This document shows, in pieces, positions 2,707 through 37,862 of a stretch of DNA of 64,000 bases; within the stretch, counting starts at the first letter, position 1, and every line of letters begins with the position of its first letter. Below the pieces are notes generated by a model. That model saw nothing but the letters and a program-made list of their open reading frames with translations. It did no database searches and was not told where the DNA came from. The stretch is from Elusimicrobiota bacterium. GTDB taxonomy: Bacteria; Elusimicrobiota; Elusimicrobia; Elusimicrobiales; UBA9959. The translations under genes were made by a program, and so were the position numbers. The stretch covers positions 62,001 to 126,000 of the forward strand of contig JAPLKI010000022.1 in assembly GCA_026388155.1 (NCBI GenBank), written 5' to 3'.

Positions 2707-2713
2707 CTAGGCA

Positions 2714-9512: not shown

Positions 9513-9586
9513 GTAAGATCTGTCGCTTTTGATGACGGATTCCCGGCCGCTTTGCCTCATTCTGCCATCTGCGGCATATTCTCTTT

Positions 9587-10423: not shown

Positions 10424-10430
10424 AAAAACA

Positions 10431-10557: not shown

Positions 10558-12763
10558 TCAACAACATATGCATTCCGATGAAAAAAAAATAAAAAAAGCG
10601 GTAGTTCCTCTTGAAGGGGTGCATTGCGCCTCCTGCGTGGCGCGCATTGAAAACGGATTGGGCGCTACCGGCGGCATCGGCAGCGTTTCGGTGCACCTGC
10701 CTTCAAAAACAGCTTTCCTGTCTTATGACCCGGCTTTGATCACCCCTCTCCAAATAGAAAAGAAAATCGAGGAACTCGGCTACAGGGCCCTGGCGTTTTC
10801 GGAGTCAACGCTGAACGCGGAAAGCGTGGCGGTGGAGTCCCTTCTGCGCGAAAAGAACATGTTTCGCAACCGTTTCTGGCTGGCCGCCGGCGGAACCTTG
10901 TTTTTACTTTCAGGCGGTTTTTTTGAGCTTTCTCCTTATACCGGCATGCCGGTGGCGGCTATTGTCTGGCTTTGGGGCGGCTGGCATTTTCACAAGGGCC
11001 TGCTTAAATCGTTAAAGGCCAGAACCGCCGACATGAACACCCTGGTTTCCATGAGCACCAGCGTCACTTTTTTTTACGGGGCTTTCGTCACTCTTTATCC
11101 GTCAGCCGTGGCGGCGCCTTATCACGCCCAGTGGTACGATGTGGCCCTGCTTATAACCTTCATCAATTTAGGCCGCTGGCTTGAAGCCCGCTCAAAGAAC
11201 CAGGCGGGGGAAGCTGTTTCACGCCTTTTTTCCATTGTGCCCAAGTTCGCCCGCCGCCTCCGGGCGGGTACTGGGGAAACAGTTCCCGTTTCGGATATTG
11301 TGCCCGGTGACCGCATCAGCCTGCGACCCGGAGAGCAGGTGCCGGTGGACGGTGTGGTAAAGGGCGGCGCTTCGGCCCTTGATGAAAGCCTGCTCACCGG
11401 AGAGGCCCTGCCGGTAGATAAGGCGTCAGGCTCAAAACTTTACGCCGGCACCATAAACAAAAATGGGGCCTTAGAATTTGAGGCCACCGGTGTCGGAGAG
11501 GACATGGTGCTGGCAAAAATTATAAAGGCGGTGGCTGAGTCACAGGCAGCCAAAAGCTCGATACAGCGCCTGGTGGATAAAATTTCGGCCTGGTTCGTAC
11601 CGGCTGTTTTTTTTATAGCGGCTTTTTCCGCCGCTGTCTGGCTGCGTTACGGGGAGGCCTCCCAGGCTGTAAATGTTTTTGCCGCGGTGCTCGCGGTGGC
11701 CTGTCCCTGCGCCATGGGGCTTGCGGTTCCCATGGCGGTCGCCGTCGGTTTCGGGCGCGCGGCCGCTTCCGGCATTCTTATAAGGAACCCTGATGTGCTT
11801 GAGCGCGCGGCAAAACTTGACGCGGTTCTGTTCGACAAGACGGGCACCTTGACCTCGGGCCTGCTCCGGGTGATAAATATAAGGCCAAGCGGCCTTTCTG
11901 AAAAATATTTTTTGGAACTGCTGGCGGCGGCGGAAGAAAGATCGGAACATCCGCTGGCGCTTGCCGCGCGGCAATTCGCCGCGGAGCGCGGCGTAAAACC
12001 GGAGACCCCCGCATCCTTTGAGGCGTTGCCCGGCAAAGGCGTCAGAGTTGGTTTGTCAGCGGGTTTGGCGCTTGCGGGTTCCTCCAAGTGGCTCGCGCAG
12101 GAAGGCGTGGCTATACCTGAGTCCGCGCATTCCGAACTTGAAGGAACGGAGGGGTCCGCCCTGTTTTTAGCGTTAAACGGGGAGTTTAAGGGGTATGTCG
12201 AGTTTGGGGACACCATAAGGCCCGAAGCTCCGGCCGTGCTCCAGGCGCTGCGCGATATGGGGATCGAGCCGGTGCTGGTTTCCGGCGACCGAAAAAAAGC
12301 GGTGACGGCTGTAGCTCAAAAGCTTTCTATAAACACCTTGTACTCTGAAATATTCCCGGAGGAAAAACGCCATATAGTGCTGCGCTATAAGGCCCTTGGC
12401 AGGAAGACGGCCATGGTTGGCGACGGGTTTAACGATGCCGCCGCCCTTTCTGAGGCGGACATAGGAGTGGCCATGCGGTCGGGGGCCGATATCGCCGTGC
12501 GGGCGAGCGACATAACTCTGATGAAAAGCGATCTTTCCTCCCTGGTGGACGCGGTCAAACTTTCAAGGGCCATTAAAAAAGTGATCAACCAGAATCTTTT
12601 CTGGGCCTTCGCGTACAACACCCTGCTCATTCCGCTTGCGGCCGGCGCGCTTTATCCTTCTTTGGGCCTTACAATACCGCCCTATTTCGCCGGCGGAGCG
12701 ATGGCCTTAAGTTCGGTTTCAGTGGTTATGAATTCATTGCGCCTGCGGCGCATGAAGATATGA
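10553..12763 (+). CDS. copA: Copper-exporting P1B-1-type ATPase
   Basis: 736 residues from the ATG at 10553; a TTG 15 nt upstream lies within a palindrome and is less likely. It exports Cu+ from the cytoplasm using ATP. Domains in order: one heavy-metal-associated domain with HCASC (residues 24-28); membrane helices; actuator loop with LLTGEALP; ACPCAMGLAVP (the CPC metal site); DKTGTLTSG with the phosphorylated Asp; SEHPLA; and GDGFNDAAAL. The last helices carry N-x6-YN-x4-P and P-x6-M-x2-SS-x5-N, the signature of the Cu+ subgroup rather than Zn or Cd pumps. The stop codon begins the next palindrome. Confidence 0.96.
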   Translation: MTQQHMHSDEKKIKKAVVPLEGVHCASCVARIENGLGATGGIGSVSVHLPSKTAFLSYDPALITPLQIEKKIEELGYRALAFSESTLNAESVAVESLLREKNMFRNRFWLAAGGTLFLLSGGFFELSPYTGMPVAAIVWLWGGWHFHKGLLKSLKARTADMNTLVSMSTSVTFFYGAFVTLYPSAVAAPYHAQWYDVALLITFINLGRWLEARSKNQAGEAVSRLFSIVPKFARRLRAGTGETVPVSDIVPGDRISLRPGEQVPVDGVVKGGASALDESLLTGEALPVDKASGSKLYAGTINKNGALEFEATGVGEDMVLAKIIKAVAESQAAKSSIQRLVDKISAWFVPAVFFIAAFSAAVWLRYGEASQAVNVFAAVLAVACPCAMGLAVPMAVAVGFGRAAASGILIRNPDVLERAAKLDAVLFDKTGTLTSGLLRVINIRPSGLSEKYFLELLAAAEERSEHPLALAARQFAAERGVKPETPASFEALPGKGVRVGLSAGLALAGSSKWLAQEGVAIPESAHSELEGTEGSALFLALNGEFKGYVEFGDTIRPEAPAVLQALRDMGIEPVLVSGDRKKAVTAVAQKLSINTLYSEIFPEEKRHIVLRYKALGRKTAMVGDGFNDAAALSEADIGVAMRSGADIAVRASDITLMKSDLSSLVDAVKLSRAIKKVINQNLFWAFAYNTLLIPLAAGALYPSLGLTIPPYFAGGAMALSSVSVVMNSLRLRRMKI

Positions 12764-20442: not shown

Positions 20443-21225
20443 ATGAAAGTCGTAATTCTGGCGGGCGGATTGGGAACCAGGCTTTCGGAAGAAACGGATT
20501 TAAAACCCAAGCCCATGGTCGAGATAGGCCAAAAGCCTGTGCTTTGGCATATAATGAAACTTTATTCCCATTATGGCTTTAACGATTTTGTGCTTTGTCT
20601 CGGCTATAAGGGCTATATGATAAAGGAGTATTTCACCAATTATTACCTGCATCAGTCCGACCTCACCGTTGACCTGAAAAACAACAGCATGGAAGTGCAT
20701 CATTCCAAGGCCGAGCCCTGGAAAATTACCATGGTGGACACCGGTTTAAACACCATGACAGGCGGCCGCATAAAACGGGTGGAAAAATATATGGGGGATA
20801 AGCCCTTCATGCTTACCTACGGCGATGGTGTGGGGGATATAAACATAAAAAAACTTTTGGATTTCCACCGTAAGAGCAAGCGCAGCGTCACCATTACTGC
20901 CGTACAGACTTTGGGCCGTTTCGGCGCGCTTGATATAAGCGGGGAGCGGGAGGTGGTTTCGTTTCAGGAAAAGCCGCATGGCGACGGTTCCTGGATAAAC
21001 GGCGGTTTCTTTGTGCTTGAACCGGAAATATTCAAGTACATAGACGGCGACGCTTCAATTTGGGAACGTGCTCCGCTGGAGGCTTTGGCCAGGAAAAAAC
21101 AGCTTTCAGCCTATAAGCATGACGGTTTCTGGAAATGCATGGACACGCTTCGCGACAAGCAGGAGCTGGAAAATCTCTGGCAGTCCGAAAAGGCTCCCTG
21201 GAAAGTATGGAAAGACGGGCAATGA
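20443..21225 (+). CDS. rfbF: Glucose-1-phosphate cytidylyltransferase
   Basis: 260 residues. It makes CDP-glucose from CTP and glucose-1-phosphate, the first step to 3,6-dideoxyhexoses. LAGGLGTRLSEETDLKPKPM is the nucleotide-binding signature of this family, and WINGGFFVLEPEIF follows in the C-terminal half. GGAGG lies 7 nt before the ATG. The stop overlaps the rfbG start (ATGA). The 75-nt gap before the gene shows nothing except a short AT-rich stretch. Confidence 0.96.
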   Translation: MKVVILAGGLGTRLSEETDLKPKPMVEIGQKPVLWHIMKLYSHYGFNDFVLCLGYKGYMIKEYFTNYYLHQSDLTVDLKNNSMEVHHSKAEPWKITMVDTGLNTMTGGRIKRVEKYMGDKPFMLTYGDGVGDINIKKLLDFHRKSKRSVTITAVQTLGRFGALDISGEREVVSFQEKPHGDGSWINGGFFVLEPEIFKYIDGDASIWERAPLEALARKKQLSAYKHDGFWKCMDTLRDKQELENLWQSEKAPWKVWKDGQ

Positions 21226-22298
21226 AAGACCGGTTCTGGACCGGGAAAAAGGTATTCCTTACCGGCAATACCGGTTTTAAGGGAAGCTGGCTGTCGCTGT
21301 GTTTAAGTAATATGGGCGCCGAAGTTTACGGCTACGCCTTGAAGCCTCCGACAAAGCCCAGCCTTTTTAACCTTTGTGCCATCGATAAAATAACAAATAC
21401 GACCATCGCCGATATCCGCGACTTGAGCCGCCTTAAAAAAGCGCTTAAAGCGGCGGGGCCCGATATCATTATCCACATGGCGGCGCAGCCGCTGGTGCGC
21501 GAGTCGTACCGCGTACCGCGGGATACTTTCGAAGTAAATGTAATGGGTACCGTAAATCTGTTGGAAGCCGCGCGCGGGTGCGGCGGAGTACAAGCGGTGG
21601 TAAATGTCACCACCGACAAGTGTTATGAAAATAAGGAGCGTCCGGGCGCCTACCGCGAAGGCGAGCCTCTTGGCGGTTATGACCCCTATTCCTCCAGCAA
21701 GGCCTGCTCGGAACTTGCAACCTCGGCTTACCGCAATTCTTTTTTTAACGCCAGGGACTATAAGAAGCACGGCGTGGCTATAGCCTCGGCTCGCGCGGGC
21801 AATGTTATAGGCGGGGGGGATTGGGCCGAAGACAGGCTTATCCCGGATATAATAAGGGCGGCTTTGCGAGGCAAAAAGGTCCTGATAAGGAACCCCCGCT
21901 CAATAAGGCCATGGCAGCATGTGCTTGCGCCTTTAAGCGGCTATCTGCTTCTGGCCCAGAAGCTTTGCCAGAAGGGCCCTTCCTATGCCGAGGCCTGGAA
22001 CTTCGGTCCGGCGGAGTCCGACGCCAAAGATGTGGAATGGATAGTAAAGCGCATGTTCCAAAAGTGGCACGGGGCCCCCGGTTATATTATCGACAAAGGC
22101 CGCCACCTGCACGAGGCGCATTATCTTAAACTTGATTCTTCAAAGGCGCGGCGTGAACTGGGCTGGCTTCCCCGCTGGAATATCGGCCAGGCGATAGACC
22201 GCGTTATTGACTGGACCGAAGCCTATACACGCAAAGAAGACATGCGGGAAGCGACTCTTAGACAGATAAAGGATTATCTTGCCATAGACCGTAAGTAG
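21222..22298 (+). CDS. rfbG: CDP-glucose 4,6-dehydratase
   Basis: 358 residues from the ATG overlapping the rfbF stop. Upstream in-frame codons lie inside rfbF and are not used. It forms CDP-4-keto-6-deoxyglucose. TGNTGFKGSWLSL is the NAD loop; VNVTTDKCYENKE and GYDPYSSSKACSE hold the catalytic residues, with Tyr and Lys in YSSSK. The ENKERPGAYREGEPLGG segment is typical of RfbG. Followed by palindrome H and then an unrelated hydrolase gene before rfbH. Confidence 0.96.
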   Translation: MKDRFWTGKKVFLTGNTGFKGSWLSLCLSNMGAEVYGYALKPPTKPSLFNLCAIDKITNTTIADIRDLSRLKKALKAAGPDIIIHMAAQPLVRESYRVPRDTFEVNVMGTVNLLEAARGCGGVQAVVNVTTDKCYENKERPGAYREGEPLGGYDPYSSSKACSELATSAYRNSFFNARDYKKHGVAIASARAGNVIGGGDWAEDRLIPDIIRAALRGKKVLIRNPRSIRPWQHVLAPLSGYLLLAQKLCQKGPSYAEAWNFGPAESDAKDVEWIVKRMFQKWHGAPGYIIDKGRHLHEAHYLKLDSSKARRELGWLPRWNIGQAIDRVIDWTEAYTRKEDMREATLRQIKDYLAIDRK

Positions 22299-22306
22299 AA
22301 ATCATT

Positions 22307-22453
22307 GCCATAAGCCATATGCCGTATGCCATAGGCTTTTAAGGAATGTCTGATTAGTTTGGGATATCGGAGTAAAACTCTGGTTTTTTTATGAAGTTGT
22401 AAAGTGTTGGTTTTGGCATTTTTTGCCTATGGCCTAAGGCATATGGCTTATAG
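22307..22453 (+). repeat. Word-repeat palindrome H (GCCATAA words) with a long central insert
   Basis: GCCATAAGCCATATGCCGTA and its continuation ATGCCATAGGC are matched by GCCTATGGCCTAAGGCATAT and GGCTTAT at the far end. About 90 nt of unrelated AT-rich sequence lie between the arms, which start with TTTTAAGGAATGTCTG. It looks like a palindrome that received an insertion in its core. Confidence 0.7.
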
Positions 22454-22471
22454 CAACCGAGTAGCTTTATC

Positions 22472-23218
22472 ATGGAAATAGTATTCCTTGGCACCAACGG
22501 CTGGTACGATACTTCCACCGGCAATACCGTCTGCGCCCTTATTAAAACAAAGCGCTTTGATGTTGTGCTGGACGCCGGCAACGGCCTGGCCAAACTTGAC
22601 CGCTATTGCGACGGTTCGAAACCGGTATATCTTTTTCTCAGCCATTTTCACCTGGACCACATTATAGGCCTGCATGCTCTGCTGAAATTCAGGTTTCGCA
22701 AAGGCCTTACCATCTGCGCGCAAAAGGGCGCGCGCCGTGTGTTAAAAGCGTTCGTAAACGCCCCTTTTACCATGCCGTTGTCCAAATTGCCTTACCCTGT
22801 AAGGGTAGTTGAACTTCCAGTCGAAGCCCGGAAACTGCCTTTCAAGATAAAAAGCTTGCCGCTTGAACACGCAGACCCGGTACTTGGTTTCCGCCTGCGT
22901 CTTGACGGAAAGACGGTGGCTTATTGTACCGATACCGGCTATTGTCCCAATGCCCTTAAACTGGCGAAAGGTGCGGACCTGCTTATAGCCGAATGCTCCC
23001 ATCTTCCGGGCGAATCCAACCCCGGCTGGCCGCATTTCAACCCGGAAACGGCAGCCAAACTTGCGCGTGAGGCGGGGGCGAGGCGCCTTGCGCTTACGCA
23101 CTTTTCAGCCGACAGATATCCCGATATGCGCGGCAGGGCCATGGCCTTGCGTGTGGCCAGGAAGATGTTTTCGCGTACCGCCGCCGCCAAAGACGGAATG
23201 CGGATTAAATTGCGGTAG
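22472..23218 (+). CDS. Metallo-beta-lactamase-fold hydrolase (RNase Z-like)
   Basis: 248 residues. Zinc-site motifs are present in order: SHFHLDHIIG (HxHxDH), ECSHLPG, CTDTGY with the bridging Asp, and LTHFSADRYP. The layout is that of the RNase Z/PhnP-like group, acting on phosphodiesters or similar bonds, but the exosite of true RNase Z is not obvious. It sits between rfbG and rfbH inside the CDP-dideoxysugar genes, 41 nt before rfbH. Whether it serves that pathway (for example cleaving a nucleotide by-product) or merely sits there cannot be told. Confidence 0.82.
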   Translation: MEIVFLGTNGWYDTSTGNTVCALIKTKRFDVVLDAGNGLAKLDRYCDGSKPVYLFLSHFHLDHIIGLHALLKFRFRKGLTICAQKGARRVLKAFVNAPFTMPLSKLPYPVRVVELPVEARKLPFKIKSLPLEHADPVLGFRLRLDGKTVAYCTDTGYCPNALKLAKGADLLIAECSHLPGESNPGWPHFNPETAAKLAREAGARRLALTHFSADRYPDMRGRAMALRVARKMFSRTAAAKDGMRIKLR

Positions 23219-23259
23219 AGGTTTTAAATGCTATTTCAGAAAGTAAAGGCGGGAATAAA

Positions 23260-24573
23260 ATGAAACGCGAAGAAATTTTAAACGCTGTCAGGGCCTACCA
23301 CGCTGCCGCTTTCGCCGCTAAACCCTTCAACAGGGAAAAGGATACCGTCCGTTATGCCGGAAGGGTATTTGACGAAAAAGAACTTGTTGCTTTGGTGGAT
23401 TCGTCGCTTGATTTCTGGCTCACTGAAGGGCGCTACGCTGAGAGTTTCGCCGAGAAAATTTCCGATTTTATGGGGGTTGAGAATGTCATACTCGCAAATT
23501 CCGGCTCATCCGCCAACCTGCTCGCGCTTTCGGCTCTTACCTCTAAAAAATTAGGCAAAAAAAGGCTCATGCCGGGCGATGAAGTGATCACCGTGGCCGC
23601 GGGGTTCCCTTCGACGGTGACTCCCATTTTGCAGAACGGGCTGGTTCCCGTTTTCGTGGATGTGGAACTCCCCACCTACAATATTAATATCGAAGCCCTG
23701 AAAAAGGCCGTTTCATCCAAAACCCGCGCGATCTTTCTCGCTCATACGCTTGGCAACCCCTTCAATGTGGAAGAGGTCCTGAAAATTGTCAAAAAACATG
23801 ACCTCTGGCTTATAGAGGACAACTGCGACGCTTTAGGAAGCCGCTATAAGGGAAAATACACCGGCACATTCGGGCACATCGCCACTATCTCTTTTTACCC
23901 GGCTCACCACATAACCACGGGAGAGGGCGGCGCCGTGGTGACCAATAGCGAGCAGCTGGCCCAGATCGTCCGTTCATTCCGGGACTGGGGGCGCGACTGC
24001 TACTGCGCCGGCGGCGAAAACAATACCTGCGGCAAGCGCTTCTCCCAGCAATTCGGGACGCTTCCCGCCGGATACGATCATAAATATGTCTACTCCGAGC
24101 TCGGCTATAACATGAAAATGACCGATATGCAGGCGGCGATAGGTTCCGTCCAAATGGATAAACTTGAAATGTTCGGCGAAAAAAGACGCGGGAATTTTAA
24201 GCGTTATCAGAAGATCTTTTCCCGCTATTCGGGTTCCTTTCTTCTTCCCGAGGCGACCCCGGGCTCCGATCCTTCCTGGTTCACCTATATTGTTTCTGTC
24301 AGGGAAAACGCCCCCTTCACGCGCAATGACCTGGTGTCGTTTTTAAACGAGCGCCGGATAGAGACCAGGAATATTTTTGCCGGCAATATCCTCCGTCAGC
24401 CGGCCTTTATCGGCAGGCCCTGCCGTGCGCAGGGGGAACTCAGCGTTACCGACTTTATCATGAATAACACTTTTTTCCTCGGAACCTATCCCGGTATGAC
24501 CGACGGGATGTTCGCTTATGTGGAAGACTGTGTCGCCGAATTCATGGGGCGGTTCCAGAGGCTAACAGCTTAG
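23260..24573 (+). CDS. rfbH: CDP-4-keto-6-deoxyglucose 3-dehydrase (E1), RfbH family
   Basis: 437 residues. It removes the C3 hydroxyl of CDP-4-keto-6-deoxyglucose using pyridoxamine phosphate and an iron-sulfur cluster. The usual PLP-lysine is replaced by His in FYPAHHITTGEGGA (near residue 220), the hallmark of this dehydrase. Clustered cysteines in RDCYCAGG and NNTCGKRF bind the [2Fe-2S]. It needs reducing power from a flavoprotein, which is the next gene. The last codons lie in a half element of tandem words (24557-24594). Confidence 0.96.
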   Translation: MKREEILNAVRAYHAAAFAAKPFNREKDTVRYAGRVFDEKELVALVDSSLDFWLTEGRYAESFAEKISDFMGVENVILANSGSSANLLALSALTSKKLGKKRLMPGDEVITVAAGFPSTVTPILQNGLVPVFVDVELPTYNINIEALKKAVSSKTRAIFLAHTLGNPFNVEEVLKIVKKHDLWLIEDNCDALGSRYKGKYTGTFGHIATISFYPAHHITTGEGGAVVTNSEQLAQIVRSFRDWGRDCYCAGGENNTCGKRFSQQFGTLPAGYDHKYVYSELGYNMKMTDMQAAIGSVQMDKLEMFGEKRRGNFKRYQKIFSRYSGSFLLPEATPGSDPSWFTYIVSVRENAPFTRNDLVSFLNERRIETRNIFAGNILRQPAFIGRPCRAQGELSVTDFIMNNTFFLGTYPGMTDGMFAYVEDCVAEFMGRFQRLTA

Positions 24574-24594
24574 AGGCATAGCAATTTAGAGGGG
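24557..24594 (+). repeat. Half word-repeat element (GAGGCATAGC words) at the end of rfbH
   Basis: AGAGGCTAACAGCTTAGAGG and then CATAGCAATTTAGAGGGG are imperfect 7-8 nt words that include the rfbH stop. GCATAGCAATTTAGAGG matches, on the other strand, the right arm of palindrome L at 49.3 kb. No complementary arm is present here. Confidence 0.55.
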
Positions 24595-24601
24595 TTTTTG
24601 A

Positions 24602-25291
24602 ATGGCCATCGTTAAAAAATACAAGTCCGAAGTCGTTTCCGTAGAAAACCCCGTCGCGGATATCAGAACCGTCACCCTGCGCCCGCTTGAGAAAGCCTAC
24701 AAATATAATCCCGGCCAGTTCCTTCATCTTGCGCTGGATGAATTCGATCCCGCCAAACCCTGGCCCGAATCGCGCTGCTTCTCCATGCAGAGCTCTCCGG
24801 ATCAGGAGACGATCAAAATAACCTTCGCCGCTAAGGGGAAATTCACCGCGCGCATGGCGCGCGAACTCGCTCCGGGAAAGATCATACATGTCAAACTGCC
24901 CTATGGGAATCTTTTTTCGATAGAACATGACACGCAAAAATCCGTCTTTGTCGCGGGGGGGACCGGAATCACGCCTTTCCTTTCGCTGTTTACGGCCCCG
25001 GCATTTGCGGCTTATAAAAACCCCAGGCTTTATTTCGGGGTGAGAAGTCCCTCCCATCACCTTTACGCGGACGACCTGGAAAAAGCGCGGGGTGTTAATC
25101 CCTCGTTTTTCATCACGCTTTTGAACGAGGAAAAAGACGGCCGGCTTGATATTCAGGGAATTTTCAGGGAAAACGGGCCTTCCGCCGTTTATTTTATTTC
25201 GGGTCCTCCTGAAATGATAAAAAATTTCAAATTAAGCCTGGCTGACAACTGCGTCCCCGCCGAAAATATCAGAACGGACGATTGGGAGTAA
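24602..25291 (+). CDS. Flavin reductase partner of RfbH (E3-like), without ferredoxin domain
   Basis: 229 residues. FNR-type module: RCFSMQSSPD (FAD site, near 60), VAGGTGITPFLSLF (NAD ribose/pyrophosphate loop, near 117), and ISGPPEMIKNF near the end. In known systems the reductase (AscD/DdhD) is about 330 residues because it starts with a plant-type [2Fe-2S] ferredoxin domain; here that part is absent and the ATG is preceded by normal intergenic sequence, so it is not a truncation by frameshift. It probably passes electrons from NAD(P)H to RfbH directly or via a separate ferredoxin. Placed 28 nt after rfbH. Confidence 0.85.
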   Translation: MAIVKKYKSEVVSVENPVADIRTVTLRPLEKAYKYNPGQFLHLALDEFDPAKPWPESRCFSMQSSPDQETIKITFAAKGKFTARMARELAPGKIIHVKLPYGNLFSIEHDTQKSVFVAGGTGITPFLSLFTAPAFAAYKNPRLYFGVRSPSHHLYADDLEKARGVNPSFFITLLNEEKDGRLDIQGIFRENGPSAVYFISGPPEMIKNFKLSLADNCVPAENIRTDDWE

Positions 25292-25357: not shown

Positions 25358-26242
25358 ATGAAGACGAAACCGACGATTCTTTTGACCGGGGGCACGGGAT
25401 TTTTGGGCAGCAATCTGCTGCGCAAATTTTTATCCGAAGGCTTTAATGTCGTGATCCTTGCGCGGGAGACCTCCGATTTTTCAAGGATCAAAGAGAATCT
25501 GGATAAAATCCGGGTTTTGTATGTTGAGAGCTGCGATTATGAAAAGATCTTTAAAGATTTCAGGGTTGATGCCGTTGTCCACTGCGCCACGAACTATGGC
25601 AGAAAAATGGAATCTCCTCTTTCAATACTGGAGGCTAATTTAACGCTCCCGCTGAAACTTTTACAGGTCGGAAAAAGCAATGGCCTTAGATGTTTCATTA
25701 ATACCGACACAATTCTTGATAAGCGGATTGATTTCTATTCATTGTCTAAAAGCCAGTTCAAGGATTGGCTTAAATTGTATTCCGACAAACTGATGTGCGT
25801 CAGTGTTTCTTTGGAGCATTTTTACGGGCCCAACGACGACGATTCAAAGTTCGTGACCTGGGTCATTCAGTCCCTTATCAGGGGAATCCCGCAGATAGAC
25901 CTTACCCTGGGCTATCAGAAACGGGATTTTATCTATGTCGACGATGTCAGCAACGCTTTTGCCGCGATACTTAGAAACGCGATATCTAAAGGCGGAGGGT
26001 TTCAATCCTACGAGGTGGGGGCGGGGGATCCTGTTTCAATCCGGGATTTTATCGGCCTGATAAAAAGGATAACCAAAAATACAAGGACCAGGCTTAACTT
26101 CGGCGCTATCCCATACCGCGAAAATGAAATTATGGAGTATAAAACCGATATCACCGGCGTTAAATCCCTTGGGTGGTATCCAAAGGTTTCTTTAAGGGAA
26201 GGCTTGTCCAAGACTGTCGAATTTGAGTTGTGCAGGAGATGA
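25358..26242 (+). CDS. rfbS: CDP-paratose (or abequose) synthase-like SDR
   Basis: 294 residues. It is an extended SDR: TGGTGFLGSNLLRKFL near residue 10, then FINTDTILDKRIDFYSLSKS with the catalytic Tyr and Lys (YSLSK), and DFIYVDDVSNAF. In the Salmonella and Yersinia pathways such a C4-reductase (RfbS or RfbJ) turns CDP-3,6-dideoxy-4-ketoglucose into CDP-paratose or CDP-abequose. The next gene is the paratose 2-epimerase, so paratose synthase is the better guess; sequence alone does not fix the C4 stereochemistry. The gene begins a slightly more AT-rich stretch. Confidence 0.75.
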   Translation: MKTKPTILLTGGTGFLGSNLLRKFLSEGFNVVILARETSDFSRIKENLDKIRVLYVESCDYEKIFKDFRVDAVVHCATNYGRKMESPLSILEANLTLPLKLLQVGKSNGLRCFINTDTILDKRIDFYSLSKSQFKDWLKLYSDKLMCVSVSLEHFYGPNDDDSKFVTWVIQSLIRGIPQIDLTLGYQKRDFIYVDDVSNAFAAILRNAISKGGGFQSYEVGAGDPVSIRDFIGLIKRITKNTRTRLNFGAIPYRENEIMEYKTDITGVKSLGWYPKVSLREGLSKTVEFELCRR

Positions 26243-26246
26243 TTAG

Positions 26247-27269
26247 ATGAAATACCTGTTAACAGGCGGCTGCGGTTTTTTAGGGTCAAATATATCTTCT
26301 GCGCTTATACGGCGGGCTGCGGAAGTGATCGTGTTCGATAATCTTTCAAGGGCGGGTTCGGAAAAAAATTTGGAGTGGCTCAAGACAATGGGAGAGTGCC
26401 GGCACGTGATGGGAGACGTGCGCAATACTAACGACATTAATAACCTGGTTCAGGCGGAGAGGCCTGACGTGATATTCCATTTGGCCGGGCAGGTCGCAAT
26501 GACCACCTCGATCGAAAACCCCCGGATGGATTTTGAAATCAACGCGCTTGGGACGCTTAATTTGCTTGAGGCTGTGAGAAAATATTCTCCCGGGTCGGCT
26601 ATCCTTTATTCATCGACAAACAAAGCTTACGGCGACCTGGAATGGGCGAGATACGGCGAGTCGGACACCCGGTACATCGCCGTTGACTATCCAAAAGGCT
26701 TCCCTGAAACGATCTCGATAGATTTTCACTCCCCCTATGGCTGTTCAAAAGGAACCGCGGACCAGTATATGCTTGATTATTGCAGGATTTATGGCCTGAA
26801 TACCGCTGTTTTCAGGCATTCCTCCATGTATGGCGGCAGGCAGTTTTCCACTTTTGACCAGGGCTGGATCGGCTGGTTCGTGCAGAAAGCTTTAGATATT
26901 AAATCGGGGCTCCTTAAAGAACCGTTTACGATTTCCGGCAACGGAAAACAAGTGCGGGATGTCCTTTACTCGGAAGACATGGTCGCGCTTTACCTTAAAG
27001 CCGCGCAGGACATGAAGACAATCAGGGGACACGCTTTCAATGTCGGAGGCGGGATGGATAATTCACTCTCGCTCCTGGAATTGTTCTCCATGCTGCAGGA
27101 AAAAGTAGGAGTTGAGCTTAAGTATGTTAAACTTCCCGCGCGGACGAGCGACCAGAAAGTTTTTGTGGCCGATATCTCTAAAATCGGCGGAATGACCGGC
27201 TGGGCTCCGCGTGTGGGGAAAGACGCCGGAATAGGAAAAATGATCGATTGGGTTAAAAATGGAAGATAA
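26247..27269 (+). CDS. rfbE: CDP-paratose 2-epimerase (CDP-tyvelose epimerase)
   Basis: 340 residues. It converts CDP-paratose to CDP-tyvelose with tightly bound NAD. TGGCGFLGSNISSAL is the NAD loop; YSSTNKAYGDLEWARY and FHSPYGCSKGTADQY hold the catalytic Thr/Tyr/Lys and are characteristic of RfbE; RHSSMYGGRQFSTFDQGW follows. Starts 4 nt after the synthase stop and ends 11 nt inside the next gene, so the three are one transcript. With rfbF, rfbG, rfbH, the reductase and rfbS this gives a complete CDP-tyvelose route. Confidence 0.92.
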   Translation: MKYLLTGGCGFLGSNISSALIRRAAEVIVFDNLSRAGSEKNLEWLKTMGECRHVMGDVRNTNDINNLVQAERPDVIFHLAGQVAMTTSIENPRMDFEINALGTLNLLEAVRKYSPGSAILYSSTNKAYGDLEWARYGESDTRYIAVDYPKGFPETISIDFHSPYGCSKGTADQYMLDYCRIYGLNTAVFRHSSMYGGRQFSTFDQGWIGWFVQKALDIKSGLLKEPFTISGNGKQVRDVLYSEDMVALYLKAAQDMKTIRGHAFNVGGGMDNSLSLLELFSMLQEKVGVELKYVKLPARTSDQKVFVADISKIGGMTGWAPRVGKDAGIGKMIDWVKNGR

Positions 27270-31226: not shown

Positions 31227-32120
31227 ATGAACAAACGCGCAAAGATATTGCTTACCGGCGGCGGCGGGTTTATAGGGAAAAACCTCCTTGAATCCCCTCT
31301 GGCCCGAAAATATGAAATTGCGGCCCCGCGCCACGCGGAGCTGGACCTGCTGGATGAGGACGCAGTACGGAACTACATCAAAAGCGGCAATTTTGACTTT
31401 GTAATACATAGCGCGTCCAAGCCGGGGCACCGCAATGCCAAAGAGCCGGGAAAGGTTTTTTATGAGAATACCCGGATGTTCTTTAACCTGGCCCGCAGCT
31501 CGGAATATTTTAAAAAGATGCTGGTAACGGGTTCCGGCGCCATTTACGATATGCGCCATTACCGTCCGAAAATGAAAGAGGATTATTTTGACGGGCATGT
31601 TCCTGTCGATGAGCACGGCTTCTGCAAGTATGTCTGCGGCAAGTATATTGAGGGGACGGACAATATAACAGACCTCCGGGTGTTCGGTATTTACGGCAAG
31701 TATGAAGATTATGCCATACGGTTCATTTCCAACATGATCTGTAAGGCCGTCTGCGGCCTGCCGCTGACCATAAAGCAGAACCGCCGGTTTGATTATATCT
31801 GGGTTGACGACCTGTTGTCTGTTATGGAATATTTTCTGGAAAACAACGCCTGCCACAAGGCGTATAACGTTACTCCGGACAAATCTGTCGAACTTCTGGA
31901 ATTGGCCGATAAAGTTCTGCGGATATCCGGTAAGGATTTGCCGATAAAAGTCGCCCAGCTCGGCCTTGGCCAGGAATACAGCGGTGATAATTCCAGGCTC
32001 AGGGCGGAAATCAAGGGTTTGTCCTTTACCCCGCCCGACGAGGCGATCGGGAAACTTTATTCATGGTATAACGCCAACAAGGATTCTATAAACAGGGAAA
32101 CGCTGCTTTCCGACAAGTGA
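31227..32120 (+). CDS. NAD-dependent epimerase/dehydratase (GDP-fucose-synthase/WcaG-like), altered Tyr
   Basis: 297 residues, an extended SDR with LLTGGGGFIGKNLLESPLA at the N-terminus and FDYIWVDDLLSVMEYFL later. The catalytic YxxxK position reads HGFCK (in VDEHGFCKYVCGK): the Lys is kept but Tyr is His. That may change or disable reduction/epimerisation, or the general acid may be another residue. It could be the enzyme that takes Gmd's product onward, but nothing shows its nucleotide specificity. It is followed 7 nt later by the TPP enzyme; its 5' end is duplicated at 29176. Confidence 0.72.
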   Translation: MNKRAKILLTGGGGFIGKNLLESPLARKYEIAAPRHAELDLLDEDAVRNYIKSGNFDFVIHSASKPGHRNAKEPGKVFYENTRMFFNLARSSEYFKKMLVTGSGAIYDMRHYRPKMKEDYFDGHVPVDEHGFCKYVCGKYIEGTDNITDLRVFGIYGKYEDYAIRFISNMICKAVCGLPLTIKQNRRFDYIWVDDLLSVMEYFLENNACHKAYNVTPDKSVELLELADKVLRISGKDLPIKVAQLGLGQEYSGDNSRLRAEIKGLSFTPPDEAIGKLYSWYNANKDSINRETLLSDK

Positions 32121-32127: not shown

Positions 32128-33918
32128 ATGATAAAACTCTCGGACTATGTGGCTAAACGGCTGGTAGAGCATGGCGTAAAGCACGTGTTCATGATATCCG
32201 GCGGCGGCGCTATGCACCTTAACGACGCCGTGGGAAAATGTAAAGGGCTTGAATACATTTGCAATCACCACGAGCAGGCCGCGGCCATGGGCGCTGAAGG
32301 TTATTCGCGCGTCACCGACAAACTGGGGGTGGCGGTCGTTACAACGGGGCCCGGCGGTACAAATACTTTAACCGGAGTAATAGGGCAGTGGCTTGATTCA
32401 TTGCCGGCTCTTTATATTTCCGGACAGGTGAAGTTTACGACCACGGTCGCATCCTGCCCTGAAGCCGGGTTAAGGCAGCTTGGCGACCAGGAAATAAACA
32501 TCATAGATATCGTAAAACCGGTTACAAAATTCGCACAGATGCTTAAGGACCCGTACCAGGTTAAATATGTGCTGGATAAGGCCATACATATTGCCACAAC
32601 GGGGCGGCCGGGTCCGGTATGGATAGACATTCCGCTGGACGTCCAGGCGGCCCTGATAGACGAAACTAAGCTTGCTGCTTATGAGCCTGAAGCGCCTATT
32701 CCATTCAGGACTGACCTTAAAATCCAGGCCGCTAAAACTGTTGAAATGCTGCGCGCGGCTAAACGGCCTGTGCTTATCGCCGGTCACGGCATAAGGATCG
32801 CGGGGGCCCAGGAGTTGTTTGGAAAACTGGCGGACGCTTTAAAAATACCTGTGCTGGCTACCTTTGCCGGTTTTGACCTTGTGCCGAACGATAGTCCGTG
32901 GTTTGCGGGCAGGATAGGCACAGTAGGCACCAGGGGCGGCAATTTCTCGCTGCAGAACGCGGACCTGGTGCTGTCGCTGGCCTCGCGCAATAATATACGC
33001 CAGGTCAGTTACGATTGGGCCAATTATGCGCGCAATGCTAAAAAAATAGTCGTGGATATAGACCCCGCTGAACTGGTAAAGCCTACTGTTAAGCCGGAAC
33101 TGCCGGTATGCGCGGATGTGAAAGATTTTATGGCTGCCCTGCTTGCGGCGCTTCCGAAAGCCGGCGCCGGCGACTTCTCCGGCTGGCTGGCCTGGTGCCG
33201 GGAGCGCTCAGTTAAGTATCCGGTTGTCCTTGAGGAATACAAAAAACTGAAAACAAAAGTAAACCCGTATCATTTTATTGAAACACTGACCGGCATGTTA
33301 AAACCTGAAACTTCGGTCGTCGCGGGTAACGGCTCCGCCTGCGTCTGCCTTTTCCAGGCGGGGATAGCTCATAAGGGCCAGCGGATATTCTGGAATTCCG
33401 GCTGCGCCTCTATGGGTTATGATCTGCCTGCGGCTATCGGGGCTTGCTTCGGGAGCGGCAGAAAAGAGGTGGTTTGCCTGGCCGGAGACGGCAGCATTAT
33501 GATGAACCTGCAGGAACTCGCCACGGCCGCGCATTACAAACTGCCGTTAAAAATATTTGTGTTGAATAACGAGGGCTATATTTCTATCAAGCAGACGCAG
33601 GATAATTTCTTCGAGGGCCGCCACGTGGCCTGCGACTCCAGATCCGGAGTGGGTTTCCCCGATTTCATGAAAGTCGGAGAAGCTTTTGGCCTGCACACCG
33701 AAATTATAGATAACGTTTCAGATATGAGCGGAAAGATAGCCCGGGTTCTGGCTGTAAAAGGCCCGGCGCTTTGCGATGTCAGGCTTCCCGCGGACCATAA
33801 ATTCATGCCGAAGCTGTCCTCCGAAAAGAAACCGGACGGCAGCATGGTGTCCAAGCCGCTTGAGGATATGTGGCCTTTTCTGGACAGGGAAGATTTTAAA
33901 AGTAACATCATCGGCTGA
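32128..33918 (+). CDS. Thiamine-diphosphate enzyme of the acetolactate synthase family
   Basis: 596 residues. Three TPP-enzyme domains: an N-terminal pyrimidine-binding domain with ICNHHEQAAAMGAEGYSR (catalytic Glu), a central domain around 200-330, and a C-terminal domain with LAGDGSIMMNLQELATAA and VLNNEGY (the GDG...NN diphosphate motif). Ordinary acetolactate synthase would normally come with a small subunit and other ilv genes; none is here. In O-antigen loci, relatives such as YerE add a two-carbon unit from pyruvate to a keto-sugar, so a sugar- or cyclitol-modifying role is likely. It is followed by an aldolase, an SDR and a dehydroquinate-synthase-like gene in tight order. Confidence 0.85.
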   Translation: MIKLSDYVAKRLVEHGVKHVFMISGGGAMHLNDAVGKCKGLEYICNHHEQAAAMGAEGYSRVTDKLGVAVVTTGPGGTNTLTGVIGQWLDSLPALYISGQVKFTTTVASCPEAGLRQLGDQEINIIDIVKPVTKFAQMLKDPYQVKYVLDKAIHIATTGRPGPVWIDIPLDVQAALIDETKLAAYEPEAPIPFRTDLKIQAAKTVEMLRAAKRPVLIAGHGIRIAGAQELFGKLADALKIPVLATFAGFDLVPNDSPWFAGRIGTVGTRGGNFSLQNADLVLSLASRNNIRQVSYDWANYARNAKKIVVDIDPAELVKPTVKPELPVCADVKDFMAALLAALPKAGAGDFSGWLAWCRERSVKYPVVLEEYKKLKTKVNPYHFIETLTGMLKPETSVVAGNGSACVCLFQAGIAHKGQRIFWNSGCASMGYDLPAAIGACFGSGRKEVVCLAGDGSIMMNLQELATAAHYKLPLKIFVLNNEGYISIKQTQDNFFEGRHVACDSRSGVGFPDFMKVGEAFGLHTEIIDNVSDMSGKIARVLAVKGPALCDVRLPADHKFMPKLSSEKKPDGSMVSKPLEDMWPFLDREDFKSNIIG

Positions 33919-33960
33919 ATTGATGTTTTGTATCATATATATAATAAAAGGCGGTCGAAT

Positions 33961-34776
33961 ATGAATAATCTTGAAAGAAAAATGGTGGATGTGCTTCAGG
34001 ACCTTAAGGAAAACCACAATGTGGCCGGTATTAAGGCCGAATTTGAGGCTGAAGGCACGCGTCTTGAGGAGGCCCTGCGTCTTAAGGAAGTCGTGACCCG
34101 CGCCGGCCTTGATCTGACTATAAAAATAGGCGGCTGCGAAGCCCTGAAAGACATGTACGACGCCAGATCGATAGGGGTCTGCAGGATAGTGGCGCCTATG
34201 ATAGAGTCGCCTTACGCGCTGACAAAATACCTGAGCGCCGCCAAAATGGCTTTTCCCAAAGAGGAAATACAGCAGGTTTCTCTGCTTGTAAATATAGAAA
34301 CAATAATGGGAGCCGAGAACTTTGATGAAATGCTGAAGATAGATAATATCGGTGAGCTGGACGGTATTGTGCTGGGCCGCGTTGATATGACAGGCTCTCT
34401 AGGTATGACACGGGAAGACATTAATTCCGAAAAAATATTCAACATTGCCAAAGACCTTCTCACGAAGGCTAAAAAGAAGGGCCTTGAATGCGTTATTGGC
34501 GGCGGGGTGGCAAAAGAATCCCTGCCGTTTTTCAATCGCCTGCCCAAGGGCCTGCTGGACAGGTATGAGACGCGTAAGGTTATTTTTAAATGTCCCGAAG
34601 CGCTGTCGGACAAAGCTCCCGCCGGAATCCTTAAAGCTGTGGGTTTTGAGTTGATGTGGCTGAAAAACAAACGAAACTTCTACGGCTCTATATATGCCGA
34701 GGACGAGCACCGCATAAACATGCTTGAAAAAAGGTACAAACGCCTTATAGAAGAAGCCGGGGTTAAGGGAGTATGA
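33961..34776 (+). CDS. HpcH/HpaI-family (class II pyruvate) aldolase-like protein
   Basis: 271 residues from the ATG at 33961, which has AAGGCGG upstream; an in-frame TTG at 33928 gives an unlikely extension. TIM-barrel of the HpcH/HpaI/citrate-lyase-beta group: NIETIMGAENFDEML holds the metal-binding Glu and LGRVDMTGSLG the Asp. Such enzymes make or break C-C bonds with a pyruvate or acyl-CoA enolate. Here it lies 42 nt after the TPP enzyme and overlaps the SDR start (ATGA), so it is likely a step in the same unusual sugar pathway. Confidence 0.8.
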   Translation: MNNLERKMVDVLQDLKENHNVAGIKAEFEAEGTRLEEALRLKEVVTRAGLDLTIKIGGCEALKDMYDARSIGVCRIVAPMIESPYALTKYLSAAKMAFPKEEIQQVSLLVNIETIMGAENFDEMLKIDNIGELDGIVLGRVDMTGSLGMTREDINSEKIFNIAKDLLTKAKKKGLECVIGGGVAKESLPFFNRLPKGLLDRYETRKVIFKCPEALSDKAPAGILKAVGFELMWLKNKRNFYGSIYAEDEHRINMLEKRYKRLIEEAGVKGV

Positions 34777-35441
34777 AAGGGCGGGTCGCCCTGGTTACAG
34801 GCGCTTCAAGGGGTATCGGCGAAGCCATTGCCGGCGCTTTCCGCGCGAACGGAGCCGTTCTGCTTACCCCGTCGCGTTCAGAACTTGACCTCTCTTCCAA
34901 CGAGTCTATAGACAGGTATCTGGCCGGAATCGGGAAAAAAGTGGATATCCTGGTAAATAACGCCGGGATTAATCCGCTGGGCTCGGCGGAGGACTATTCC
35001 GACGCCGACCTTAGCGCCGTTATACAGGTAAATCTTACAGCGCCAATGCGGCTTATCAGGGGGCTGCTGCCGCCCATGCGCGAGAAGCGGTACGGCAGGA
35101 TAGTTAACATAAGCTCCGTGTGGAGTCTTGTTTCAAAGCCGCGCCGGTTCGCTTATTCAACGGTAAAGGCGGCGATAAACGGCATGACGCGCGCCGCCGC
35201 CGTTGAGTGCGCGCAATACGGGGTGCTGGTTAACGCCGTAGCCCCCGGCTACGTAAATACCGAACTCACCAGAAAAAATAATTCAGAGAGCGATATCCGC
35301 GCTATAGCGCAGGCTGTCCCGGCTAAGCGGCTTGCAGAGCCTTCCGAGATCGCCGCCGTTGTGGCTTTTCTCGCTTCAGGGCAGAATACGTATATAACCG
35401 GCCAGACAATAACTGTGGACGGGGGATATAGTTGTCTTTAG
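34773..35441 (+). CDS. Short-chain dehydrogenase/reductase (FabG-like)
   Basis: 222 residues, classical SDR. TGASRGIGEAIAGAF binds the cofactor; NNAGINPLG, NISSVWS (Ser) and YSTVKAAING (Tyr, Lys) form the active site; TVDGGYSCL closes the chain as in FabG-type proteins. It is an NAD(P)-dependent oxidoreductase acting on a keto or hydroxyl group. Overlaps the aldolase stop by ATGA and the dehydroquinate-synthase-like start by 10 nt, so the three are translationally coupled. The substrate is probably a pathway intermediate rather than an acyl carrier protein, because no fatty-acid genes are nearby. Confidence 0.88.
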   Translation: MKGRVALVTGASRGIGEAIAGAFRANGAVLLTPSRSELDLSSNESIDRYLAGIGKKVDILVNNAGINPLGSAEDYSDADLSAVIQVNLTAPMRLIRGLLPPMREKRYGRIVNISSVWSLVSKPRRFAYSTVKAAINGMTRAAAVECAQYGVLVNAVAPGYVNTELTRKNNSESDIRAIAQAVPAKRLAEPSEIAAVVAFLASGQNTYITGQTITVDGGYSCL

Positions 35442-36502
35442 ATAACTTTACCGTTAGATCCAGGCTGACGGATTATAATGTTCTTTTCGCTGAACCGGCT
35501 GACTATCTTCCGCGGCTGGCCGGCGAGCCTAACTGCGTGTTTGCCGTGGACGAAAATGTCTGGCGCCTGCATAAAGGCTCCGTCCTTAAGCCGCTTGCAG
35601 GCGCTTCCCTGATAATACTGCCGATAAGCGAAGAGCTGAAATCACTGAAATCGGTACAGATGCTTTATGACCGGATAGTGGAGTTCGCCCCCAAGAAGAA
35701 CATGCGCCTTGTCTCCATTGGCGGGGGGATAACGCAGGATATAACCGGTTTTGTCGCCTCGACCCTTTACCGCGGCATAAAATGGACTTTTATCCCGACC
35801 ACCCTTCTGGCGCAGGCCGACAGCTGCATAGGCGGAAAAACATCGCTTAACTACAAAAACTACAAGAACCTGGCGGGCACTTTCTATCCGCCTTCTGAAA
35901 TCTATATCTCCGCCGGTTTTCTTTCAACGCTGAAAGACAGCGATTATTTGAGCGGCCTTGGAGAGATAGCCAAGCTTTGCATAATAGGCGGAGAAGCCGA
36001 GGCGAAAGAATTTGCCGGAGCCGTTGAAAGGATGCTTAAGCGTGAATCCGCGCCGCTTCTGTGTTTTCTTCGAAAGGCTCTTGGGATAAAGAAAGGTTAT
36101 ATAGAGGATGACGAATTCGACTCGGGCCGCAGGAATATGCTGAATTTCGGGCACTGCTTCGGCCATGCTATAGAGTCCGCCACGGATTTTGCCGTGCCGC
36201 ATGGCCTGGCGGTGGTTTATGGCATAATACTGGCGAATATGGTTTCACGCCGCAGAGGGCTGTTGTCAAAGGATTTGGAAATGTTTATGCGGGAACGGAT
36301 CCTTTCCCCTATTATCCCGCCGGGGATGTTAAGCGCCGGTATCGACGGGGCTGCCGTTGTGCAAGGCATGAAAAAAGATAAAAAGCGCACCGGGGCGAAA
36401 CTTGCCCTTGTGATGGCAATGGACGGCTTCCGGATGACGCGGGTAAACGATCTCGACGAAACGGAGGCGCTGGCGGCTGTTGCCGAGCTGTGGCCGGTTT
36501 AA
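35432..36502 (+). CDS. 3-dehydroquinate synthase-like sugar phosphate cyclase
   Basis: 356 residues. It starts at TTG 35432, preceded by GGGGG at a good distance. All AroB-family active-site blocks are present: GGGITQDITGFVAST, TTLLAQADSCIGGKT, KNLAGTFYPP, GLGEIAK (Glu zinc ligand), LNFGHCFGHAIE (His) and PHGLAVVYG (His). So the zinc site is intact and NAD binding likely. The family also includes 2-deoxy-scyllo-inosose and sedulose-type cyclases, and the position at the end of a TPP enzyme-aldolase-SDR block inside an O-antigen locus argues for a cyclitol or unusual sugar rather than the shikimate pathway. Confidence 0.85.
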   Translation: MSLDNFTVRSRLTDYNVLFAEPADYLPRLAGEPNCVFAVDENVWRLHKGSVLKPLAGASLIILPISEELKSLKSVQMLYDRIVEFAPKKNMRLVSIGGGITQDITGFVASTLYRGIKWTFIPTTLLAQADSCIGGKTSLNYKNYKNLAGTFYPPSEIYISAGFLSTLKDSDYLSGLGEIAKLCIIGGEAEAKEFAGAVERMLKRESAPLLCFLRKALGIKKGYIEDDEFDSGRRNMLNFGHCFGHAIESATDFAVPHGLAVVYGIILANMVSRRRGLLSKDLEMFMRERILSPIIPPGMLSAGIDGAAVVQGMKKDKKRTGAKLALVMAMDGFRMTRVNDLDETEALAAVAELWPV

Positions 36503-36540
36503 ATAATATTCCCCGTCCACGCCGGGCGGCGGTTTTTGTT

Positions 36541-36936
36541 ATGGCTGATGCTCCTGAACTGAAAAAAGCCTGGGATAACAGGTTTATACGGTTTTTGATC
36601 GTGGGCGGGCTAAATACCCTTGTCGGGTATGCCCTGTTCGCGCTGTTGATATTTGCCGGATTGCATTATTCTTTGGCGGTTTTTCTCTCCACGCTCCTGG
36701 GGATCTTGTTCAACTTTAAAACTACCGGCTCTCTTGTCTTCAAGCATAGCAACAACAGGCTTATATTTAAATTTGTGTCAGGTTACGCTGTCGTTTATTT
36801 TCTGAATGTAGGGCTGCTTAAAGAGTTAAGCGTTTTAGGATTTAATATGTACGCGGCCGGAGCCATGCTGCTGCCGCCTATGGCGCTGGTTTCATATTTT
36901 TTAAATTCCAGGCTGGTTTTTAGGGGACATCCATGA
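36541..36936 (+). CDS. gtrA: GtrA-family membrane protein (lipid-linked sugar flippase-like)
   Basis: 131 residues from the ATG at 36541; a GTG at 36490 would overlap the previous gene and has no ribosome site. Four transmembrane segments, with FLIVGGLNTLVGYALFALL and LGILFNFKTTGSLVF typical of GtrA (PF04138). GtrA proteins move polyprenyl-phosphate-glucose or a similar donor across the inner membrane. It overlaps the GtrB-like gene (ATGA), and a GT-C protein follows: the classic three-gene O-antigen modification set. Confidence 0.88.
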   Translation: MADAPELKKAWDNRFIRFLIVGGLNTLVGYALFALLIFAGLHYSLAVFLSTLLGILFNFKTTGSLVFKHSNNRLIFKFVSGYAVVYFLNVGLLKELSVLGFNMYAAGAMLLPPMALVSYFLNSRLVFRGHP

Positions 36937-37862
36937 AAACTATCAGTATCGTAATGCCCTGCTACAATGAAGAATTGAACGTTGAGAAGGCGTATAAAGC
37001 GGTTAAAGATATCTTTTCCACTTCGGGTGATTACAACTATGAGCATATTTTTATAGATAACGCTTCGGAGGACGGGACTTTTGCAATACTGAAAAAAATA
37101 GCGGTCGAAGATAAAAAAGTAAAACTGATACGCAATGTCCGTAACTTCGGGCATATCCGCTCCCCTTTTCACGGTTTGCTCCAGACATCCGGAGACGCGG
37201 TAATACTAATGGTAGCCGACCTGCAGGACCCTCCGGAGCTGATCGCGGAATTTATTAAAAAATGGGAGGGGGGAAGCAAAATAGTCGTCGGAATTAAAAC
37301 AGACAGCGACGAAAACGGGCTGATATTCGGGATACGCAAGTTCTACTACCGGATAATGAACCGCATCTCCGAAGTGCGGCACATAGAAAACTTTACGGGG
37401 TTCGGCCTTTACGACAAGCAGGTCATTGAGATACTGCGCGGCATAGACGACCCATACCCGTATTTCAGGGGGCTTATTGCCGACATCGGTTTTGAGATCT
37501 CCCGCGTTGAATATATACAGCCGGCCAGGAAATCGGGAATAACCAAGAATAACTTTTACACTCTCTATGACATGGCCATGCTGGGACTTACGAACTATTC
37601 AAAGATCCCGTTAAGGATAGCCACGTTCCTGGGGTTTGCAATGTCCCTGATAAGCCTTCTTGTGGCGCTTTCTTATCTGGTTTATAAGCTTATTTACTGG
37701 CAGGAGTTCTCTTTGGGAATAGCGCCGATAGTGATAGGGCTTTTCTTTATGTTTTCGGTGCAGCTTTTCTTTTTGGGGGTTGTCGGGGAATATATCGGCT
37801 CTATACATACAAAAGTCCTTAAGCGCCCGCTGGTTGTGGAAAGGGAAAGAATCAATTTTTAA
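36933..37862 (+). CDS. gtrB: GtrB-like polyprenyl-phosphate glycosyltransferase
   Basis: 309 residues. GT-A fold at the N-terminus: VMPCYNEELNVEKAYKAV, IDNASEDGTFAIL, VADLQDPPELI (DxD-type). Residues about 230-290 hold two transmembrane helices, as in bacterial bactoprenol glucosyltransferases (GtrB/ArnC). It would transfer a sugar from a nucleotide donor to undecaprenyl phosphate at the cytoplasmic face. Tightly coupled to gtrA upstream and 4 nt from the GT-C gene downstream. Confidence 0.9.
   Translation: MKTISIVMPCYNEELNVEKAYKAVKDIFSTSGDYNYEHIFIDNASEDGTFAILKKIAVEDKKVKLIRNVRNFGHIRSPFHGLLQTSGDAVILMVADLQDPPELIAEFIKKWEGGSKIVVGIKTDSDENGLIFGIRKFYYRIMNRISEVRHIENFTGFGLYDKQVIEILRGIDDPYPYFRGLIADIGFEISRVEYIQPARKSGITKNNFYTLYDMAMLGLTNYSKIPLRIATFLGFAMSLISLLVALSYLVYKLIYWQEFSLGIAPIVIGLFFMFSVQLFFLGVVGEYIGSIHTKVLKRPLVVERERINF

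Follow-up and report, generated by a model that had tools for sequence, protein, structure and literature searches.

The lyases YerE and ErwE both act on CDP-4-keto-3,6-dideoxyglucose; YerE uses pyruvate as donor, and ErwE prefers 4-hydroxy-2-oxo acids (PMC12247030). Caryophyllose is 3,6-dideoxy-4-C-(1,3,4,5-tetrahydroxyhexyl)hexose (PMC5706390). Here, we analysed a stretch of 64,000 nucleotides from an Elusimicrobiota bacterium (assembly GCA_026388155.1, contig JAPLKI010000022.1, positions 62,001 to 126,000; hereafter the window), which contains four successive genes for a thiamine diphosphate (ThDP)-dependent lyase, an HpcH/HpaI-like aldolase, a short-chain dehydrogenase (SDRx) and a protein related to AroB, the 3-dehydroquinate synthase (DHQS), hereafter named AroBL. 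We propose, at somewhat less than an even chance, that this module assembles a side chain and couples it to a sugar to yield a C4-branched 3,6-dideoxyhexose of the erwiniose/caryophyllose kind for O-antigen, with AroBL working as a non-cyclising enzyme. The frame formed by ddhABC, an aldol enzyme and a ThDP lyase is well supported; the chemistry of AroBL we infer. A first-pass annotation of this DNA had suggested either a carbocycle or a branched sugar made from pyruvate and a sugar phosphate, and the latter is the best-supported reading.

In the open reading frame (ORF) list of the window, all four module ORFs are intact, complete, on the same strand and overlapping or closely spaced (Table 1). 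The aldolase and SDRx genes overlap by 4 bp, the SDRx and AroBL genes by 10 bp, and the AroBL gene and the GtrA-like gene that follows by 13 bp. All four proteins score above the Pfam gathering thresholds, and the tight gene order described in the first-pass annotation stands. For the aldolase, whose ORF is listed as 33928-34776, the likelier start is the ATG at 33961, preceded by AGGCGG.

The module is conserved far beyond the window. A scan for AroBL gave 30 loci and, with later additions, 33 module-type loci were scored, the window included. AroBL is accompanied by SDRx in all 33 of them, by an aldol enzyme in 31 and by a ThDP gene in 30 (loci without either of these two end at contig or retrieved-sequence edges, and L030 retains a ThDP fragment at the sequence edge), by ddhC in 20 (many loci being incomplete for this count), and by an extended SDR, named SDR3, in 16. 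Hence, the search for the same set in other genomes that had been recommended at first pass found it kept in relatives, and the four-gene association is not due to chance. The module occurs in about eight phyla or similar groups: Elusimicrobiota, Spirochaetota, Melainabacteria, Planctomycetota, Omnitrophota, Thermodesulfobacteriota, Bacillota (including Clostridia) and Pseudomonadota. In L089, the genes form a single run, ddhA-ddhB-ddhC-SDR3-HpcH-SDRx-AroBL-ThDP-GtrA-glycosyltransferase. One Spirochaete and one Planctomycete are nested among Melainabacteria in the AroBL tree, and the gene is sporadic within Elusimicrobiota, the phylum of the window; this mixing of phyla and sporadic occurrence suggest that the module moves horizontally. 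No AroBL was found at E<=1e-90 in a sample of 385 Alphaproteobacteria genomes, a subset of a larger class; the centre genome, with a fragmented AroBL copy, was also missed at this threshold, so that this result does not establish absence. Above ~35% identity, no AroBL was present in plasmid and phage collections, and the plasmid collection contained no close relative of the module ThDP enzyme. HpcH relatives were found on plasmids of Novosphingobium and Ilyobacter, where the rest of the module is not present. One of these settings, on the Novosphingobium humi megaplasmid, has an HpcH-type aldolase beside ddhA and ddhB (L048, 14001-14807), the other module genes not being there.

The best model for AroBL is TIGR04425, "AroB-related putative sugar phosphate phospholyase (cyclizing)", with 383 bits for a cut-off of 400, and close relatives score on either side of this cut-off. 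Against the aroB model TIGR01357, AroBL reaches 248 bits for a cut-off of 305, below which the likely true AroB of the same genome, at 290 bits, also falls. This other aroB is located on contig C17. In the tree, AroBL separates from AroB, including the true AroB encoded by genomes that carry AroBL, with support of 100/96. Placement in such a tree had been suggested in the first-pass annotation, which named firm clustering with true AroB and the lack of another aroB as arguments against its view; the opposite was found on both counts. An ordinary or duplicated aroB in an incidental neighbourhood would share the DHQS fold and motifs, and is nevertheless scarcely credible in view of the other aroB in the genome, the separate clade and the same neighbours across phyla.

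The fold of AroBL is closest to that of DHQS (Z 41.5). 2-deoxy-scyllo-inosose synthase (DOIS; 38.5) and ValA (38.0) are close behind, so that the fold alone is not decisive. All 14 DHQS-type active-site positions checked are kept in 36 of 36 AroBL sequences, except for K181, which is Arg in one. Roles of single residues in carboxylate or phosphate binding are those that we assume from known DHQS structures. R234, N238 and K317 (the carboxylate Arg, the Asn and the DKK Lys) are kept in AroBL and missing from the DOIS and the sedoheptulose cyclase examined (L043, L044); R234, present in 36 of 36 AroBL, is replaced by Ala in DOIS and by Glu in the sedoheptulose cyclase. The identification of AroBL as either of these cyclases was rejected, because the active-site residues differ. 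Retention of the carboxylate Arg fits an acid substrate made before decarboxylation. In addition, Q102 and C132, near the active site, occur in every AroBL sequence and in none of 24 AroB. An FGGY-like carbohydrate kinase adjoins AroBL in L057, L090 and L091 (Pfam check on L057) and perhaps supplies the phosphate that AroBL would remove.

These features also bear on a reading in which AroBL would carry out true DHQS chemistry on an epimer of 3-deoxy-D-arabino-heptulosonate 7-phosphate (DAHP) from a dedicated aldolase. SDRx would reduce the carbocycle to a quinate-like acid, this cyclitol acid would decorate the polysaccharide, and the ThDP enzyme would separately use a simple 2-oxo acid to make a branched sugar. 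The 14 conserved positions, DHQS as the nearest fold and the word "cyclizing" in the title of TIGR04425 are all in line with it, and Q102 and C132 could set a different stereochemistry. We consider it possible but rather unlikely, as it leaves unexplained the ThDP gene that constantly accompanies AroBL wherever the contig allows, the clade of AroBL-linked ThDP enzymes and the pairing of an aldol enzyme with a ThDP enzyme in AroBL-free loci (see below); besides, the module showed no conserved acyltransferase. Bradyrhizose and caryose were set aside as products: AroB-type closure leaves a CH2, whereas the ring carbons of these two sugars are hydroxylated. The bradyrhizose genes were not known as of 2016 (PMC4743980).

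The ThDP enzyme has three TPP domains, the catalytic Glu, a GDG motif and a JanthE-type C-terminal tail. Compared with solved structures, it scores 432 bits with JanthE (8rph), 265 with 5ahk, which we take to be PpYerE, and 262 with E. coli acetolactate synthase, the last two being nearly tied. Judged from sequence, its nearest solved relative is a tertiary-alcohol-forming lyase and not acetolactate synthase, carboligation to an NDP-keto-sugar being predicted. A clade of 27 members (FastTree support 0.965) unites the AroBL-linked ThDP enzymes; one member (L058) is without AroBL, and the enzymes of L070 and L071 are AroBL-linked yet lie outside. Inside this clade, the aldolase family changes freely, and we suggest that AroBL and the ThDP enzyme determine the donor, and that aldolases of different families all deliver one common intermediate. 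In L013 (3568-8064), two ThDP lyases are found in one sugar locus, one 5ahk-like and one JanthE-like. In view of its JanthE-type sequence and of the separate 5ahk-like enzyme in this locus, the module's own enzyme is probably not a YerE that simply uses pyruvate.

The window aldolase scores 36.3 bits with PF03328 (cut-off 25), and its AlphaFold2 model (pLDDT 91.5) matches the HpaI fold with Z of 18-19. E113 and D142 are invariant among 26 aldolase homologues and, from their motif, are taken as metal ligands. Across loci, the aldolase slot is occupied by three unrelated families: HpcH, NeuB (L013, L030) and HMGL/4-hydroxy-2-oxovalerate-aldolase-like proteins (L034, L088); L091 encodes an 898-aa protein in which an HMGL aldolase is fused with AroBL. 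The presence of three families in one slot indicates that the constrained step is the aldol addition of pyruvate or phosphoenolpyruvate. Hence, the slot is conserved as a function, not as a family.

The pairing of aldol and ThDP enzymes is also observed without AroBL. In a Burkholderiales sample, 17 of 399 genomes (centre included) encode a protein resembling the ThDP enzyme of the window, and in several AroBL-free loci an aldol enzyme accompanies the ThDP gene, frequently together with ddhABC; in L060, L061, L066 and L068, the pairing is not clear. NeuB is fused to a cupin/lyxose-isomerase-like domain in L059, L064 and L067, where this is shown, and L062, L063 and L065 look alike. A phosphatase identity for the C-terminal part of these 501-aa NeuB proteins was rejected in favour of the cupin/lyxose-isomerase-like domain. 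The ThDP partners of these NeuB-family proteins (L059, L062-L065, L067) have SDG instead of GDG. In L069, an acetaldehyde dehydrogenase and a DmpG-type aldolase lie beside the ThDP gene, with no AroBL. This is the logic expected for erwiniose, because ErwE prefers 4-hydroxy-2-oxo acids. The L069 ThDP enzyme (locus 2658-10613) is the tree sister of JanthE and shares its CDG motif; its neighbours suggest that the natural donor of JanthE may be 4-hydroxy-2-oxopentanoate.

Such partners raise the question of the order of steps. AroBL and SDRx could act before the aldolase, converting a sugar phosphate (e.g. erythrose 4-phosphate) to a deoxy-aldose that would then be joined to pyruvate, with the same 3,omega-dideoxy-ulosonate donor as outcome. 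This would resemble the loci in which the partner of the aldol enzyme makes its aldehyde, namely the dehydrogenase of L069 and the lyxose-isomerase-like domain on NeuB in L059, L064 and L067, and the HMGL-AroBL fusion is compatible with either order. We regard it as improbable, as the conserved DHQS carboxylate-binding residues argue for an acid substrate.

In the pathway that we favour, the HpcH-like aldolase is the proposed maker of an omega-phospho 3-deoxy-2-ulosonate: it would condense pyruvate with an aldehyde phosphate, in the simplest case erythrose 4-phosphate, to give a DAHP-like 3-deoxy-2-ulosonate phosphate. AroBL, the proposed NAD-dependent phosphate lyase acting on this product, would run the DHQS cycle of NAD oxidation, phosphate beta-elimination and re-reduction, but the enol would leave as a methyl ketone with the ring not closed, producing a deoxy chain end. 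SDRx, the constant partner of the AroB-like gene, is the proposed reductase of this ketone and would yield a 3,7-dideoxy-2-ulosonate (3,7-dideoxyheptulosonate). By analogy with YerE and ErwE, the ThDP enzyme would then decarboxylate the 2-oxo acid and attach the resulting acyl anion at C4 of CDP-4-keto-3,6-dideoxyglucose. Finally, SDR3 may reduce the new ketone, and GtrB/GtrA-type proteins may hand the sugar to the polysaccharide. If AroBL is non-cyclising, the predicted product skeleton is that of caryophyllose, since the 1,3,4,5-tetrahydroxyhexyl branch equals the decarboxylated, reduced 3,7-dideoxyheptulosonate skeleton.

Non-cyclising elimination is favoured because ring closure at C2 would destroy the free 2-oxo acid needed by the ThDP enzyme. 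We therefore suggest, tentatively and at somewhat less than even confidence, that AroBL is a member of the DHQS family performing redox and phosphate elimination without ring closure and that, together with SDRx, it removes the terminal hydroxyl of a 3-deoxy-2-ulosonate. If so, omega-deoxy higher sugars would have a new biosynthetic route, which would also account for the terminal methyl of caryophyllose. Several points weigh against the proposed pathway. We know of no AroB-family enzyme that halts before cyclisation, ring closure of the DHQS enol proceeds readily also when the enol has left the enzyme, and the complete DHQS active site of AroBL most simply means DHQS chemistry. In the aldolase, the position of the HpcH catalytic Arg70 appears, judged by eye, to be Lys (K55). 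Lastly, ddhABCD in the window may also, or only, serve CDP-tyvelose.

AroBL could also act after the ThDP coupling and close the phosphorylated branch on its own ketone, giving a sugar with a carbocyclic C4 substituent. The branch ketone and omega-phosphate of the coupled product would mimic the geometry of DAHP, and a ThDP gene near AroBL in 30 of the 33 loci is consistent with this order. However, a CDP-sugar would need to fit into the closed DHQS-type site, in which nothing would pair with the carboxylate Arg. A second group of AroBL operons (L035-L040) has no ThDP gene, and several of its members carry a KdsB-like CMP-ulosonate synthetase and L035 an HpaI aldolase. Altogether, we judge this order very improbable. 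The second group may be informative for the non-cyclising reading: where the synthetase is present, an intact 2-oxo acid is needed there too. Operons of this type (L035, 7710-15756; L036, L037, L039, L040) score above the TIGR04425 cut-off and contain a 2-hydroxyacid dehydrogenase and ddhA/ddhB-like genes.

A full ddhABCD set is located 7-12 kb upstream of the module, at 20443-25291. It is the predicted source of CDP-4-keto-3,6-dideoxyglucose, which gives the module its pathway context. The first-pass annotation did not connect this set to the module, could not match the four genes to a known pathway and considered YerE to be distantly analogous to just the first gene. Both statements fall short, since ddhABCD, SDR3 (31227), a candidate YerF-like reductase of the acyl branch, and the JanthE-type ThDP enzyme tie the module to the YerE/ErwE pathways of branched 3,6-dideoxyhexoses. 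GtrB-type relatives adjoin the module in L014, L022, L023, L029, L031, L034, L070 and L088-L091, and the GtrA-/GtrB-type genes that follow the module in the window and at several further loci suggest transfer via a lipid-phosphate sugar. The window also contains, at 25358-27269, a probable CDP-paratose synthase gene and a clear CDP-tyvelose 2-epimerase gene (at 26247, 554 bits to 9rl0), so that the locus probably makes tyvelose too and ddhABCD may have two clients here. An RNase Z/metallo-beta-lactamase-like gene (22472-23218) lies between ddhB and ddhC; in relatives, no such gene was observed at this place.

Table 1 Genes of the module and associated genes in the window.
Feature	Position	Strand	Basis
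ThDP-dependent lyase, JanthE/YerE-like	32128..33918	+	three TPP-enzyme domains, JanthE match, motifs, tree
HpcH/HpaI-like class II pyruvate aldolase	33961..34776	+	PF03328, AlphaFold2 model fold, invariant E113/D142
SDRx, short-chain dehydrogenase, FabG-like	34773..35441	+	PF13561; with AroBL in 33/33 loci
AroBL (AroB-like protein)	35432..36502	+	best model TIGR04425; own clade; full DHQS active site
ddhA/RfbF glucose-1-phosphate cytidylyltransferase	20443..21225	+	TIGR02623 439 bits, cut-off 300
ddhB/RfbG CDP-glucose 4,6-dehydratase	21135..22298	+	TIGR02622 493 bits, cut-off 278; start probably overcalled
ddhC/RfbH 3-dehydrase	23260..24573	+	NF011936 686 bits, cut-off 423
ddhD/RfbI-like reductase, partner of ddhC	24602..25291	+	PF00175; orthologues adjoin ddhC in L013, L023
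SDR3, extended SDR	31227..32120	+	PF01370; in 16/33 loci, often adjoining ThDP gene
GtrA-like flippase candidate	36490..36936	+	PF04138 54 bits; close to module in several loci
GtrB/DPM1-like family 2 glycosyltransferase	36933..37862	+	PF00535

This gene combination was not found described in the open literature searched, although an earlier mention is possible. The analysis places the TIGR04425 family of DHQS-related proteins in a defined chemical setting common to many phyla, and offers a simple rule by which long C4-branched surface sugars can be predicted from sequence data, namely ddhABC with any aldol enzyme and a JanthE-type ThDP lyase. A further outcome is a hypothesis, open to test, on how the side chain of caryophyllose-like sugars arises, together with a source of new ThDP- and AroB-family biocatalysts.

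Compared with described systems, the locus shares with the YerE/YerF pathway to yersiniose A in Yersinia pseudotuberculosis the supply genes for CDP-4-keto-3,6-dideoxyglucose, a ThDP lyase and an SDR candidate for ketone reduction. However, the window ThDP enzyme is nearer to JanthE than to 5ahk, the donor of YerE is pyruvate and, to our knowledge, YerE has no aldolase or AroB-like partner. The ErwE pathway to erwiniose in Pectobacterium atrosepticum likewise relies on a ThDP lyase and the same CDP-sugar, with a 4-hydroxy-2-oxo acid donor, which is the product class of a pyruvate aldolase; in the window, chain assembly would also involve an AroB-like enzyme and its SDR. AroB itself resembles AroBL in fold and in its complete active site, and differs by the separate clade, the AroBL-only Q102 and C132, the genomic context and the presence of a second aroB. 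2-deoxy-scyllo-inosose and sedoheptulose-7-phosphate cyclases belong to the same superfamily and were likewise recruited outside the shikimate pathway, but AroBL has kept the carboxylate Arg, the Asn and the DKK Lys, all three of which are missing from the two examined. For caryophyllose, whose known makers are Trinickia caryophylli and Mycobacterium marinum, the comparison is made by product skeleton: with AroBL as a non-cyclising lyase, the branch predicted here would equal that of the MMAR_2332 pathway for the M. marinum lipooligosaccharide.

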